Origin: a virus
Reading direction: 5' to 3' (one strand)
Length of the DNA stretch: 61,843 nucleotides
Virus record (IMG/VR): IMGVR_UViG_3300048813_000081
Location: 1-61,843 of that record
Below the pieces are notes generated by a model. The model saw nothing but the letters and a program-made list of their open reading frames with translations, was not told where the DNA came from and searched no databases. Below, piece by piece: positions 32,791 to 45,380 of the stretch (the first letter of the stretch is position 1; each line of letters starts with the position of its first letter). A program made the translations under genes and the position numbers.

Positions 32791-34086
32791 CTATTTATTT
32801 AATAATGATTTACAGAACTTAACAATACGATTCTGGAGCTTCGGCTTTAAAACATTCAACAGTCGTGTCCCGTCCGGAACCCCCAAGCCAGTACAACAAT
32901 CGTAACCAGTGGTAGCAGAATAGGCACCATTATTACCAGAGGTAACATCAAAAAACACTCCTGGATTTGCATACATTACATCCTTTAAATTACTCACCGG
33001 TTTATCTAGATTACTATTTAATAAAGCATTCAGTCCAGCCATCAATGGTGCTACAGCTGAAGTACCGCCTATTACCGATTGCTGTCCATCGACATCAACT
33101 ATATATCCGCTACTAGGGTCGGCGTTGCCGGCTATGTCGGGGACTTTACGACCGGATGTTGATACGCCGCCGCCGGTAGCACCTTCATTAGATAGCCACT
33201 CAGTCCATACGGTCTCCGATTTACGACTACCATCACTATTAAGAATAAGTTTCGTGCCGCCACAGGCTATCGAATAAGGCGAACTAGCAGGGAAGTCAAC
33301 GTGGTTACCAGTTTCTCCATCACTAGAGCCATTATCACCCGCAGCGACAAATACATTAATACCAGCATCAGTACAACTCTTGATAGCATTATTCATAGCC
33401 TCTTGTGCACCTGAATCCCATTGATCTTCTGGAGCACCCCAGCTATCGGAGATGCAGTTCGGTTTCTTAAAGTATGTAGCTATGTTAGAAATAGCATTAA
33501 TATAGCCATTTGTAGTATTCGGAGCAAATACTATTAGAATCTGCACTCCAGGAGCTACCGCTGCTACAACGCAAATATCTAGGGAGACCTCACCATCGGC
33601 ACCATCTGCTCCATCGGAGACGTTAGCTCCTGTAGAAAAATTATGTTGCCACATGCGTGGGTAGGCTACACCCATCGATTTACAGTAGTTCAAAACGTTA
33701 GTCGGGTTAAATCCACCGCCCAATTCTATAATGGCTACGACTTGATCTTTAATAGCTGCTGTCGGTTTAGGGAAATTATAAGCCTTGGCGACTTGCAAGG
33801 GGGTGAGAGGTGATGCCGAAGGACCGAAAAGACCACGGGTCAGATGATGTGTGGGCCGTTTATACAACCCCTCACCATGCTTATCCGACAAAATACATAG
33901 GATGTGATGACCGAATAGTTTTTTCAGGTGTGTTATGATCCCAGGATTCGAAGCTTCAAACCTGATAACTCTGTGTTCATGAAATAATGCCGCTGTTAGC
34001 TTCTTCATGCGTAGATACTTAACTATATCCAAATGAAAGCCAAGACCTGAATCTGATACGGGGCGTAGGTGGATTGAATATTTCAT
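32791..34086 (-). CDS. Sedolisin/kumamolisin-type serine-carboxyl peptidase (S53)
   Basis: The 431-residue protein has the full S53 catalytic set: Glu166 and Asp170 in DGEVSLDICV, the oxyanion Asp251 in VFVAAGDNGSSDGETG, and nucleophile Ser343 in GGTSAVAPLMAGL. SPLTPLQVAKAYNFP (residues 92-106) is the classic S53 domain start, and FFDVTSG near residue 380 fits the calcium site. The first 85 residues would be a short propeptide (about half the usual length). There is no signal peptide, so it may act in the cytoplasm, after lysis, or in the virion. S53 enzymes are acid proteases in bacteria and fungi; one in a phage accessory region is unusual. Confidence 0.85.
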   Translation of the reverse strand: MKYSIHLRPVSDSGLGFHLDIVKYLRMKKLTAALFHEHRVIRFEASNPGIITHLKKLFGHHILCILSDKHGEGLYKRPTHHLTRGLFGPSASPLTPLQVAKAYNFPKPTAAIKDQVVAIIELGGGFNPTNVLNYCKSMGVAYPRMWQHNFSTGANVSDGADGADGEVSLDICVVAAVAPGVQILIVFAPNTTNGYINAISNIATYFKKPNCISDSWGAPEDQWDSGAQEAMNNAIKSCTDAGINVFVAAGDNGSSDGETGNHVDFPASSPYSIACGGTKLILNSDGSRKSETVWTEWLSNEGATGGGVSTSGRKVPDIAGNADPSSGYIVDVDGQQSVIGGTSAVAPLMAGLNALLNSNLDKPVSNLKDVMYANPGVFFDVTSGNNGAYSATTGYDCCTGLGVPDGTRLLNVLKPKLQNRIVKFCKSLLNK

Positions 34087-34331: not shown

Positions 34332-34763
34332 ATGAGAGTAACTGATTTAGCATGGGCAGCAGGAATTATTGATGGCGAAGGTTGTATACACATTAGCCGT
34401 GTTAAAGCTAGTGTGTGCAATCAAAGACAATCAGATCGCTATTCGCTTATGCTGAAATTAACTATGACACATAAAGAAACTATCGATAAATTTTATACTA
34501 TATTGCCGGGAGCTACGATACAAACAGGACAAAGACCAAACCGCAAACGAACATATACCCTGAATTACAGAATTACAAAAGCAATAGCGGCAATCAGACT
34601 CCTGTTACCCTATTTAGTCACCAAGAAAAAAGAAGCAAAATTAGCATTAAGATATGGCAATGTGCCTGCATGGCCAAGTCGATCTGGTAAGCGTCCTGCA
34701 AGTTTAACTCAATTGCGTCATACTTATTATTTATTAATGCGTAGGTATAAACATGAAAGTTAA
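34332..34763 (+). CDS. LAGLIDADG homing endonuclease
   Basis: The 143-residue protein has one LAGLIDADG-type helix, AWAAGIIDGEGCIHISR, at residues 8-24, followed by the expected beta segments (YSLMLKLTMTHKETIDKFYT, YTLNYRITKAIAAIRLLLPY). With one motif it would act as a homodimer. It overlaps the start of the downstream HDAC-fold gene by 11 bases, and both form a plus-strand island in a minus-strand region. A TTGACT/TAATAT pair lies close upstream. Confidence 0.85.
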   Translation: MRVTDLAWAAGIIDGEGCIHISRVKASVCNQRQSDRYSLMLKLTMTHKETIDKFYTILPGATIQTGQRPNRKRTYTLNYRITKAIAAIRLLLPYLVTKKKEAKLALRYGNVPAWPSRSGKRPASLTQLRHTYYLLMRRYKHES

Positions 34764-35559
34764 ATTGTTTGGAGATGTAACTCCTGTTGATTGGGCGGCC
34801 CTCAATATTCGCATGCCATTCGCTCCGATGCATGAGTTGGCAGAGAAGTATGAATTAACTGAAGTTAAGAAAAGCTACATACCTGCGCTAGAAAATAATG
34901 TTGATGATTTAGGTCATATTTTCGAAACCGATATCAATGTTTTAGATGGTAGGGAATTATTTAAACGTGTTAAATATCGTGCTAATAATACAGTCGCTGC
35001 TCTAGATCGCTGTACCCCCGACACTATCTGCATTAACCTCAACGGCGGCTATCACCACGCCGGAAAATACCCCAATACGGGATATGCGTATAGTTTAATT
35101 AACGATCACATTTGGGCTACTGACTATCAGCTAGAACGATATAACAATATCAGAATAGGCATCTGGGATAATGATTTTCACTATGCTGGTGGGACTATTG
35201 AATACTATAAGGATAGTTCACAGGTTGATGTATTTTCTGAACACGCTCCGCTTAGAGGCGTTTTATATAAACATCAACACTTAAGACAAGAGGGATTGGG
35301 CTGTTATATGTTTGACTTGAATACAGTCGATAAAGTTTTACTAAATCTAGGAACGGATTATTCTACAGAAGACGAATTATTCGGACAATATGCCTGGTAC
35401 GATCGCAGCTGGGTAATGGCTTTCTGGAAGAATACTATTATGCATGTTCTAGAACATAGAACACCTCTAGCTATAACTTTCGGCGGGAGTTATGGAGATA
35501 AGGGGATTAGTATGTACAAAGAAATTATTACTTTTTGCCAGGAATTGCCAGGACTCTAA
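34753..35559 (+). CDS. Histone-deacetylase-fold (arginase/deacetylase superfamily) protein
   Basis: Several HDAC family motifs appear in order. LNGGYHHAGKYPNTGYAYS has the His101-His102 dyad. RIGIWDNDFHYAGGTIEYY contains metal ligands Asp141 and His143 (family DxDxHHGDG). VDVFSEH corresponds to the family S.H strand. NLGTDYSTEDELFG has the third metal ligand Asp202 (family GAD...DPLG). ITFGGSYGD has the transition-state Tyr247 (family GGGGY). The second Asp of the HHGDG motif is Gly here, so the charge relay is altered. At 268 residues it is shorter than typical HDAC/AcuC proteins (300-390). It may remove acyl groups from host proteins, polyamines or nucleotides; the substrate is unknown. It overlaps the convergent HslV-like gene by 32 bases. 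Confidence 0.8.
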   Translation: MKVKLFGDVTPVDWAALNIRMPFAPMHELAEKYELTEVKKSYIPALENNVDDLGHIFETDINVLDGRELFKRVKYRANNTVAALDRCTPDTICINLNGGYHHAGKYPNTGYAYSLINDHIWATDYQLERYNNIRIGIWDNDFHYAGGTIEYYKDSSQVDVFSEHAPLRGVLYKHQHLRQEGLGCYMFDLNTVDKVLLNLGTDYSTEDELFGQYAWYDRSWVMAFWKNTIMHVLEHRTPLAITFGGSYGDKGISMYKEIITFCQELPGL

Positions 35560-36055
35560 TAACCCCACCGGTATACAGATCAAGTTCCTCAGCGACCCGA
35601 ATCGCATCCTTAGCAGTACCACCAAATGTCATAATAGCTAAAGCGAATTCTTCGCCAGAGCCGAATGCAAACGGTGCTGGTATAGGCGTTGGATCTTCCA
35701 GGCTGTGATTATATAAGAACGCTTCACCGTCATCATTAATGACTAATATGAGCCATTCATCACTCTTGGCTAGTGCTAGTTTAGTGGGTACGAATTCAGA
35801 TAACGGTTTAGTAGTCGCAAGAAAGAATTTCTTAACAGGAGCTGTAAAAGCAACATCTCCAGCAGCGGCTATTGTTGCATGTCTGGCTGGTGAATAAGCG
35901 ATTTTAGGAGCGGCAGATTGAAACTTAGTATGTCCAGATGTAGACTGACTATCGCAAGCTAGAGTTTTGCCATCGAACGCAATAGTAGTACTCCACGCAG
36001 GCATATATGAGCTTAAGGTCATAGAAACTGCTAGAAGTAATGATTTATAGTGCAT
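35528..36055 (-). CDS. HslV/proteasome-beta-like Ntn hydrolase with signal peptide
   Basis: After residue 22 the protein reads TTIAFDGKTLACDSQS, the N-terminal-threonine pattern of HslV/proteasome beta subunits. By that alignment Thr23 is the nucleophile with Asp35 and Lys51 completing the triad. Later segments fit the family (HATIAAAGDVAFTAPVKKFF, FAFGSGEEFALAIM, GGTAKDAIRVAEELDLYTGG). The first 22 residues (MHYKSLLLAVSMTLSSYMPA then WS) form a signal peptide with an A-W-S cleavage motif. Sec cleavage would therefore expose the catalytic threonine. Phage relatives I know of usually start directly at MTTI. A periplasmic or secreted Ntn hydrolase would be new. Confidence 0.75.
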   Translation of the reverse strand: MHYKSLLLAVSMTLSSYMPAWSTTIAFDGKTLACDSQSTSGHTKFQSAAPKIAYSPARHATIAAAGDVAFTAPVKKFFLATTKPLSEFVPTKLALAKSDEWLILVINDDGEAFLYNHSLEDPTPIPAPFAFGSGEEFALAIMTFGGTAKDAIRVAEELDLYTGGVIRVLAIPGKK

Positions 36056-36064
36056 AACTTATAA

Positions 36065-36919
36065 TTATACCTTAACAATTCGTAGTGCCTGCAAGATATC
36101 TTCGAATCTGCATCCCCTGTGGCAGAATAAGACGTTTTTATCGGTATTAACGCACAAGTTATTACAGGATCTGTCGAAGCCTTTGGAGGCGCAACAGGGA
36201 CACTGTCCTATTAGTTCGCCACTGCCTGATTCCTTGAACTCCCAATGTGAAGGAAATTCCGCCAAAAGGGGTGTTTTAGGTTTATTCTGTAACCGTCGTG
36301 AACGTTTTTCCACTAAAGCCGGCAGATTAGAGGCTATTGTAACTACTAAATCACCAGAATTGGGGGACTGTTGAAGAAACCAATCTAGCTGGTCATCGTC
36401 GGGACAGTCTAAGAATAACCCGCGCTGACCTGTTTTCTTGTGAACACCTAACGGTAAGCGTACTAGATTACCTAATTGTTCTGGTTTTATAGATGTTTGT
36501 TTAGGAAACGATTCTGCCTTTAGCCCTGCAAGCATGCATGCATATATTCCCATTCGATGTACCAACGCTGTAGCAACCGGTCTATCGAATAAGAGCCATA
36601 CGTGTCCCATACGACCGGGGCGTACCGATTCGCGTAAATAAACCAAATTATTAATATTAAGGTAGTGCAGAAGCCTATTAAATTCTGTTGTTTGGTGGTC
36701 ATCGTCGATATCTATGCATAAAAATTTGCTGGTATTGTTTGCTGGGCTGGTAGTGTAAATGCCTAAAGTTTGTTTCCCCGTGAAATGATCTTCTAATAGT
36801 GAATTCGTAATCGACTGTCTGATAGCTAGATAAGAGCCATTGGTTTGCTGTAGCCCGTGGGCGTTCGGGTTACTTTGAAACCTCTCCAGGAACTGCCTCT
36901 CTCTGCCTATCACGCTCAC
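36065..36919 (-). CDS. Archaeo-eukaryotic-type (AEP) primase with C-terminal zinc finger
   Basis: The GTG start gives 284 residues. FLCIDIDDDH (Asp70, Asp72) is the AEP metal-binding motif, GRMGHVWLLFDRP holds the motif II histidine (His106), and LGNLVRLPLGVHKKTGQRGL matches the TOTE/phage AEP subgroup. The C terminus has a zinc-binding cluster (CPCCASKGFDRSCNNLC ... CHRGC). It makes primers for replication and probably works with the SF3 helicase encoded 20 kb away at 55427-56929. It overlaps the upstream gene by 50 bases. Confidence 0.8.
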   Translation of the reverse strand: MSVIGRERQFLERFQSNPNAHGLQQTNGSYLAIRQSITNSLLEDHFTGKQTLGIYTTSPANNTSKFLCIDIDDDHQTTEFNRLLHYLNINNLVYLRESVRPGRMGHVWLLFDRPVATALVHRMGIYACMLAGLKAESFPKQTSIKPEQLGNLVRLPLGVHKKTGQRGLFLDCPDDDQLDWFLQQSPNSGDLVVTIASNLPALVEKRSRRLQNKPKTPLLAEFPSHWEFKESGSGELIGQCPCCASKGFDRSCNNLCVNTDKNVLFCHRGCRFEDILQALRIVKV

Positions 36920-44571: not shown

Positions 44572-44683
44572 GTTTGTACCCCCTTAATTTATTAGCAGCT
44601 AGTAGTGTTAATAAACGACCGAATTCATCCTTCCGAAATAAACCGCCTAGAGGTACGGTGAATGCGCGATTAATTATGAGCAT
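44564..44683 (-). pseudogene. Orphan C-terminal fragment left by GIY-YIG insertion
   Basis: This 39-codon frame (MLIINRAFTVPLGGLF... ending GYKRG) matches the last 33 residues of the 65-residue protein at 45377-45574 at about 18 positions (VPLxxLFxK..FGxLL..L.A.K.R.YKR). The GIY-YIG gene lies exactly between the two copies. The fragment also contains the ribosome site of the next gene. It therefore looks like the original 3' end of the interrupted gene, with the upstream copy supplied by the element. Confidence 0.65.
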
Positions 44684-45380
44684 ATGCTCTCTTGGGTCTA
44701 GAAGCTGCTTCAATTGGATTCCATCCTCTACGAATTCTGTCTCTGCATATTTTATTGGTTACTATATTAAACAATTTTACTAATTGAGTCAAATTATATG
44801 AATTATTATTGTGGTCAAACAATCGTTTACAGTGAGAGTAGCCTTCCTGTTTTCTTTGAATCCAATCTTTAGAGTTGCCTTTAGCGATAGCTGATTTATG
44901 TGCTTGGGATAATTGGCGACCGGTAAATAATTGAGATAGTTGTAGTTTTTGCGTATCGCTCATTTTGCGACCCTTATGAGCTTTAGATATTTTTAATTTA
45001 GATTCTAAGGTATGAGCATATCCTGGACGACCTTTATTTATAAGAGATAATTTACGTTTCGTTTCTTCCGATCGTTTAACACCCCTAGGGCTCCCGGCAG
45101 TAAAACTAATATTAAAATCGATGGTACGATTTAATACGTTATCTAAATACCACTGCTCTCTTGTAATACAGTCTTCAGGTAAGCATTCTTCTAATACTTC
45201 AAATCTGAATTGATCAGCACCGTACTTGTTCCAAGAACGTTGTAATAAAATATTCCAATGTTTATTCGCATTTAAGCTTGCCTTATGTGCTCTCCATCGT
45301 TGTTTTAAATTAGTCGCACTACTGCCTATGTAGCATTTATTATTAACTAAATTTGTAATTTTATAAATACCAGTACTCAT
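44670..45380 (-). CDS. GIY-YIG homing endonuclease with NUMOD3 repeats
   Basis: The 236-residue protein begins GIYKITNLVNNKCYIGSSA (GIY...YIG) with the downstream RWRAHK arginine and FEVLEECLPED glutamate of the catalytic module. The middle has NUMOD3 DNA-binding repeats (GVKRSEETKRKLSLINKGRP, KAHKGRKMSDTQKLQLSQLF, SQAHKSAIAKGN). The last 45 residues (YNLTQLVKLFN...RIRRGWNPIEAA) are shared with the two HNH proteins at 49908 and 51923. The ATG overlaps the upstream stop (ATGA). It is inserted at the 3' end of the 65-residue gene. Confidence 0.9.
   Translation of the reverse strand: MSTGIYKITNLVNNKCYIGSSATNLKQRWRAHKASLNANKHWNILLQRSWNKYGADQFRFEVLEECLPEDCITREQWYLDNVLNRTIDFNISFTAGSPRGVKRSEETKRKLSLINKGRPGYAHTLESKLKISKAHKGRKMSDTQKLQLSQLFTGRQLSQAHKSAIAKGNSKDWIQRKQEGYSHCKRLFDHNNNSYNLTQLVKLFNIVTNKICRDRIRRGWNPIEAASRPKRAYAHN

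Follow-up and report, generated by a model that had tools for sequence, protein, structure and literature searches.

A phage lineage carries a diverged histone-deacetylase-fold protein with glycine in place of the second histidine's relay partner

Lysine acylation is widespread on bacterial proteins. Phages can acetylate host defence proteins, as the accessible part of PMC10286901 describes for AcrVA5 acting on Cas12a. Among the matches listed from the open-access literature, we found no phage acyl-removing enzyme described with a function and no functional study of a phage histone deacetylase (HDAC), and neither PMC11532494 nor PMC13325672 contains, in its main text, a word starting with phage, virus or viral. 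Phage-encoded HDAC-fold genes as such are not new, as gp202 of Rhodococcus phage E3 illustrates. Viral acetylpolyamine amidohydrolases are represented by ten homologues, all from Imitervirales and three with measured activity (accessible part of PMC9992855).

Deacylases with an extended foot pocket have Tyr before the tandem histidine, with small residues preceding the catalytic Tyr, according to the accessible portions of PMC13325672 and PMC11532494. In the same portions of PMC13325672, class IV enzymes of clade B remove medium or long acyl chains and have a Phe/Tyr gatekeeper, clade A enzymes have a Thr/Ser gatekeeper and an intact site and are inactive on peptides, changing human Phe141 to Thr lowers activity to background, and among bacterial class IV enzymes those branching near the family's base favour acetyl over octanoyl. 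Vibrio cholerae HdaH (VcHdaH), in which GGYHH and a Gly-rich strand occur together, has weak de-decanoylase activity in what is available of PMC11532494. In known HDACs the general-base His is polarised by Asp (D183 in HDAC8) or Asn (accessible parts of PMC11532494 and PMC8556138).

The window analysed here is the whole 61,843-base IMG/VR record IMGVR_UViG_3300048813_000081, which carries tailed-phage genes for a terminase large subunit, a major head protein, a baseplate wedge, a tail fibre and an amidase endolysin. The initial annotation had proposed, from motifs, that one of its genes (Table 1) encodes an HDAC-fold protein, and our searches bear this out. Pfam PF00850 (Hist_deacetyl) matched the protein at E 2.2e-10 and 40.8 bits (cut-off 27.9), the only match to that family in the whole record, and two phage orthologues scored 43.4 and 54.3 bits, both above the cut-off. 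The best match in a PDB sequence search was 9gkv (V. cholerae HdaH; E 6e-6), and NCBIfam and PHROGs gave no match. The Pfam score, two AlphaFold2 models and the two orthologues rule out chance motif resemblance; judging from sequence, we regard the gene as genuine and conserved in its phage lineage, and the lineage as new and diverged. No signal peptide was seen by eye in the protein, scans of the surrounding sequence for promoters and terminators did not exceed shuffled sequence, and PADLOC matched neither this gene nor its two minus-strand neighbours. No tRNA gene was found in the window, and a search for the host found none, the closest terminase matches being less than 40% identical.

Table 1. 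Features of the window around and within the HDAC-fold gene.
Feature	Positions	Strand	Basis or remark
Peptidase_S8-like gene	32791..34086	-	Conserved neighbour of the HDAC gene in 3/3 phages
LAGLIDADG homing endonuclease gene	34332..34763	+	Pfam LAGLIDADG_1, 26.5 bits (cut-off 23.1); PADLOC homing endonuclease
HDAC-fold gene	34753..35559	+	268 codons; Pfam, fold models, two phage orthologues
MPFAPMH N-terminal motif, aa 21-27	34813..34833	+	Unchanged across the three phage proteins
GGYHHA, aa 98-103: foot-pocket gatekeeper Tyr100, tandem His101-His102	35044..35061	+	Alignment; gatekeeper role from accessible parts of PMC13325672 and PMC11532494
DNDFHYAGG, aa 139-147: Asp139, Asp141, His143, Gly146	35167..35193	+	Alignment
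SEH, aa 162-164: His164	35236..35244	+	Alignment; His164 in 45/45 rows
GTDYSTED, aa 200-207: third metal ligand Asp202 (predicted)	35350..35373	+	Alignment
GGSY, aa 244-247: catalytic Tyr247 (predicted)	35482..35493	+	Alignment
HslV-like peptidase gene (PHROG 1040)	35528..36055	-	Neighbour in 3/3 phages; in the window it runs into the 3' end of the HDAC gene; L001 8833-9375, L004 5341-5919
AEP/PrimPol-type primase	36065..36919	-	Resembles TOTE and CRISPR-associated primases; conserved in both related phages
GIY-YIG endonuclease with NUMOD3	44670..45380	-	Second homing endonuclease of the record

The two orthologues, found by pattern scans of IMG/VR, lie on a 72-kb contig (3300037116_000074, here L001) and a 30-kb contig (3300037141_000189, L004), and the three proteins are 46-51% identical in pairs. 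Near the HDAC gene, L001 has counterparts of 20 window ORFs and L004 of 17, with order kept. The shared block runs from tail genes through the Peptidase_S8-like protease (by its motifs probably a sedolisin), the HDAC gene on the opposite strand and the HslV-like peptidase to the primase, an amidase, a 565-aa protein and the terminase. In all three phages the HDAC gene sits at the same place, on the opposite strand and with the same neighbours. A search with the conserved 565-aa protein yielded two more fragments (4.6 and 4.3 kb) that end short of the HDAC place, so the gene is carried by all three phages that reach it. The HDAC gene is thus a settled part of this lineage, as far as the three contigs reaching the place go. 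Outside these contigs, relatives were scarce: a scan with A3 added no further phages, tblastn of the window protein against GenBank phages returned no relatives, a plasmid search gave one weak match and a first scan of genome contigs with N-terminal patterns recovered no relative. A profile of the window lineage had no match better than E 1.4e-14 in 299 Pseudomonadota genomes, and thus no closely related cellular protein turned up there.

Between L001 and L004 the terminases are 92% identical (over 330 residues), compared with 51% for the HDAC proteins, 53% for the proteases and 36% for the HslV-like proteins. From these identities, the protease-HDAC-HslV-like block would either evolve fast or be exchanged, as genes of host interaction often are, although the window and L001 show no such contrast (terminase 48%, protease 61%). 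In all three phages the HslV-like protein has a signal-peptide-like start followed by Thr-Thr-Ile/Val, and it is possibly an exported proteasome-type hydrolase with an N-terminal Thr.

The initial annotation also placed the HDAC gene in a two-gene plus-strand island with a LAGLIDADG endonuclease. The identity of the endonuclease stands, but the island does not hold as a unit. The 3' end of the endonuclease gene overlaps the start of the HDAC gene by 11 bases in the window, and at this place the endonuclease occurs in the window alone among the three phages. Its absence there in L001 and L004 rules it out as a functional partner of the HDAC gene; it is a local insertion.

We aligned the three phage proteins with 42 cellular HDAC homologues (45 rows), the latter fetched by the pattern GYHHA, so that G99-A103 are invariant by choice. 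The motifs GGYHHA, DNDFHYAGG, SEH, GTD..ED and GGSY occur in the order and at the positions that had been read from the sequence, in columns that match the catalytic ones. Invariant in 45/45 rows are G99, Y100, H101, H102, A103, N117, D118, D139, D141, H143, G147, H164, G200, D202, D207 and Y247. These include the features of the superfamily, namely the tandem histidines, Tyr247 and the predicted metal ligands Asp141, His143 and Asp202, as the initial annotation had assigned them. By alignment, Asp139 is the relay to His101, corresponding to HDAC8 Asp176. The second relay partner (Asp183 in HDAC8, or Asn) is replaced by Gly146, the partner place of His102; this Gly, noted earlier as a departure from HHGDG, is present in all three phage proteins and is a trait of the lineage rather than a slip in one sequence. 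Tyr100 likewise occurs in all three and is a Phe/Tyr gatekeeper of the clade B type by the rule in the accessible part of PMC13325672. The residue preceding Tyr247 is Ser in the window and Gly in both relatives. The MPFAPMH motif is probably an element of the L1 loop, in a region where the model has low pLDDT.

Conservation among the three phage proteins was uneven. Of 268 residues, 108 are invariant, with a peak of 36/43 in aa 88-130, which holds the two histidines, compared with 72/225 in the rest of the protein; none of the 13 active-site positions checked varies. Such a concentration of conserved residues at the active site is most simply read as selection on the chemistry.

Structure prediction agreed with the sequence assignment. 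The AlphaFold2 model from the 45-row alignment had pTM 0.81 and pLDDT 79.5, with much of the core above 90 and ten-residue blocks in 11-60, 101-110 and 161-180 at 49-69. Its best VIA matches were VcHdaH (9gkv; Z 21.1, rmsd 3.3 over 234 residues) and Leptospira HDAC11 (9gz5; Z 20.5), followed by HdaH and class I enzymes at Z 18-19, so that other HDAC classes score just 2-3 units below class IV. Because that alignment held class IV relatives, modelling was repeated with the three phage sequences alone. This model (pTM 0.71, pLDDT 65) kept the order of strands and helices nearly unchanged and again matched Leptospira HDAC11 (Z 17.5, rmsd 3.2 over 197 residues) and then VcHdaH (Z 17.1) best, which counters the concern that cellular rows biased the result. 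Foldseek agreed with VIA on both models in placing HDACs first. The initial annotation had staked its reading on the arginase/deacetylase fold and on the placing of the metal ligands; with these matches, and with metal and catalytic residues invariant in the three phages, the models leave us nearly certain of the predicted fold. In its detail the His loop is not securely modelled, unlike the fold as a whole, since stretch 101-110, which includes both histidines, has pLDDT 61 in the 45-row model and 34 in the phage-only model. A BFVD fold search gave five matches at E <=1e-3, all giant-virus proteins.

To place Gly146 among homologues, we compared 171 ORFs, comprising the three phage proteins and 168 of cellular origin, from contigs or genomes (some genes counted twice), of which 169 were readable at the motif and two were cut-off ORFs that were unreadable. 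The residue at the His-partner place was Asp in 133, Asn in 32, Glu in one and Gly in three. All three Gly belong to the window lineage, compared with none in 166 readable cellular homologues; E3 gp202 has Gly there too. A scan of IMG/VR for DxDxHxGGGT returned at least 120 stretches. Among the listed loci, 118 carry the pattern, 81 with an HDAC-like ORF having upstream HH and 37 without. A second scan for HHA-x6-GFC, a pattern blind to the His-partner residue, also returned at least 120 stretches, and 18/80 of its loci were shared with the Gly scan (counted by eye, among the matches listed). Across loci L181-L388 (208), 159 have an HDAC-like ORF, giving 160 ORFs among the matches listed. The partner residue in these is Gly in 81, Asp in 65, Asn in 13 and Ala in one, the Gly count being inflated by the first pattern, and some of these contigs may carry host DNA. 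HDAC-fold ORFs in IMG/VR are very diverse, falling by motif into four groups among the matches listed: SSG[LM]HHA/GGGT/AGGY, GAKHHA/HHGDG, ATQGFHHA/HYGDG and SGFHHA/HYGNG.

Gly at this place is not a virus-only mark, as two of 151 Chloroflexota genomes sampled (G406 and G456) encode Gly-type proteins with DLDAHCGGGT and DLDAHAGGGT, both in the second Gly-type group. The former lies near ABC-transporter-like and Rieske-like ORFs, by reading of the sequences. In 299 Pseudomonadota genomes the best match to the Gly-type profile reached 147 bits, and all 12 loci read have Asp or Asn. Since Pfam-scoring Gly-type proteins exist, two of them in cellular genomes, we do not take Gly146 as excluding the phage protein from the HDAC superfamily. 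Among 49 representative phage HDAC loci, two lacked an HDAC ORF, and the 47 readable ones had no conserved functional neighbour; the commonest were an SNF2-type helicase (8) and SSB (7), named by sequence reading.

In a 92-row tree, 32 Gly-type representatives form one clade (support 98) beside Asp/Asn-type viral proteins (99), and the three proteins of the window lineage form a separate group (100) apart from it. Forcing the two Gly groups together cost 24.7 log units (p-AU 0.0149), which disfavours a single origin of Gly in both phage groups and favours two losses of the His partner; long branches, and the naming of the group after the tree was seen, weaken this result. The window lineage adjoins class IV-like proteins with support of 85-89, but its stem is very long (4.09) and joining it with the AcuC/HdaH side was not rejected (p-AU 0.516), so the tree does not reach a firm class IV placement. 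By predicted fold and pocket motifs, the phage protein appears most like class IV (HDAC11-type) deacylases.

We propose that the protein is a small single-domain enzyme of the classical (zinc) HDAC superfamily, with the arginase/deacetylase fold. We infer that Asp141, His143 and Asp202 would hold the catalytic metal, that His101, backed by Asp139, and His102 would position and activate water, and that Tyr247 would polarise the amide carbonyl, with Tyr100 and the Gly-rich strand that precedes Tyr247 lining the foot pocket into which the acyl group leaves. With Gly146 as the partner of His102, the enzyme would be expected to be slower, or shifted in its pH optimum, rather than dead. Going by its residues and models, we consider an active metal-dependent deacylase reasonably probable, although the weak activity of VcHdaH and the inactivity of clade A enzymes on peptides speak against it. 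The Tyr100 gatekeeper, the likeness to VcHdaH and the acyl preference of basal class IV enzymes together lead us to predict, with moderate confidence, a short- to medium-chain acyl-lysine deacylase. The likeliest substrate would be Nepsilon-acyl-lysine on a protein in the cytoplasm of the infected cell; by analogy with these enzymes, we put acyl-lysine forward tentatively, at a little short of an even chance. The likeliest role may be host-protein take-over or counter-defence, though any such assignment is doubtful; no known acyl-metabolism gene or pathway pointer was found among the HDAC neighbours.

The replacement of a relay residue that is Asp, Asn or Glu in 166/166 readable cellular proteins could instead mark a loss of catalysis, leaving a pseudo-enzyme that binds its partner without cleaving it, the partner being an acylated lysine or one of the host's deacylases or acyltransferases. 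The Ser that the window protein has ahead of Tyr247, where both relatives have Gly, fits such a loss. However, a mere binder would need none of His101, His102, Asp139, Asp141, His143, Asp202 and Tyr247, all of which are invariant at 46-51% identity. The second Gly-type group likewise keeps HH, DxDxH, GxD and GGY across 19 diverse rows, and the Chloroflexota Gly-type protein L403 sits among ordinary-looking genes. We therefore regard a pseudo-enzyme as improbable.

Similarly improbable is a small-molecule amidase, whose substrate inside the host cell would be an N-acylated metabolite or signal and not the acyl-lysine of proteins. Clade A enzymes, with a full site and no peptide activity, are presumed to have other substrates in the accessible part of PMC13325672, and the fold matches include bacterial superfamily members (9gku, 9gkw) that bear the names propanil and dimethoate hydrolase. 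Against this, the gatekeeper is the Tyr of clade B rather than the Thr/Ser of clade A (same source), and among the scanned ORFs no neighbouring gene for making a known acylated signal was recognised. Our function scan covered 28 of the 84 window ORFs of at least 90 aa.

An acetylpolyamine amidohydrolase releasing spermidine for the phage has a precedent in the three tested Imitervirales proteins (accessible part of PMC9992855) but is very improbable here, as 268 aa seem to leave scant room for the extended L2 loop of cluster 4 enzymes (accessible part of PMC11532494), the pocket motifs are GGYHHA and GGSY, and no other polyamine gene was recognised in the 28/84 scanned ORFs. The loop regions of the model have low pLDDT, which makes the L2 comparison less certain. 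Of the targets suggested by the initial annotation (host proteins, polyamines or a defence signal), polyamines look least likely.

Should the favoured deacylase prove active, the gene and its numerous relatives would be evidence that phages remove host acyl marks as well as adding them, and the natural Gly variant offers a test of how far the second charge-relay residue matters for catalysis. More speculatively, and we think this on balance unlikely, HDAC-fold deacylases may be a widespread, unrecognised class of phage host-interaction proteins in which at least two lineages independently dropped the His partner, which might retune acyl or pH preference or allow the sensing of acyl-lysine during infection.

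Among known systems, VcHdaH (9gkv/9gky; sub-cluster 5b in the accessible part of PMC11532494) shares the GGYHH gatekeeper motif and a Gly-rich strand leading to the catalytic Tyr, but it is 17-19% identical to the phage protein, keeps Asp in HHGDG and is about 50 residues longer. HDAC11 of Leptospira interrogans (9gz5; class IV clade B in the accessible part of PMC13325672), the best VIA match of the phage-only model, has a Phe/Tyr gatekeeper in common with the phage protein; identity to it and other class IV enzymes is 13-15%, the phage protein has lost the relay residue and its place in the tree is not firm. Giant-virus HDAC/acetylpolyamine amidohydrolase proteins (Catovirus, Yasminevirus, Hyperionvirus and others) belong to the same superfamily but come from viruses of eukaryotes and are 14-16% identical. 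E3 gp202 ('putative histone deacetylase protein', HM114277) is likewise a phage HDAC-fold protein with Gly at the His-partner place (DFDAHCGGGT), but it belongs to the other phage group (SSGLHHA, AGGY), and a common Gly clade with the window lineage has a p-AU of 0.015.
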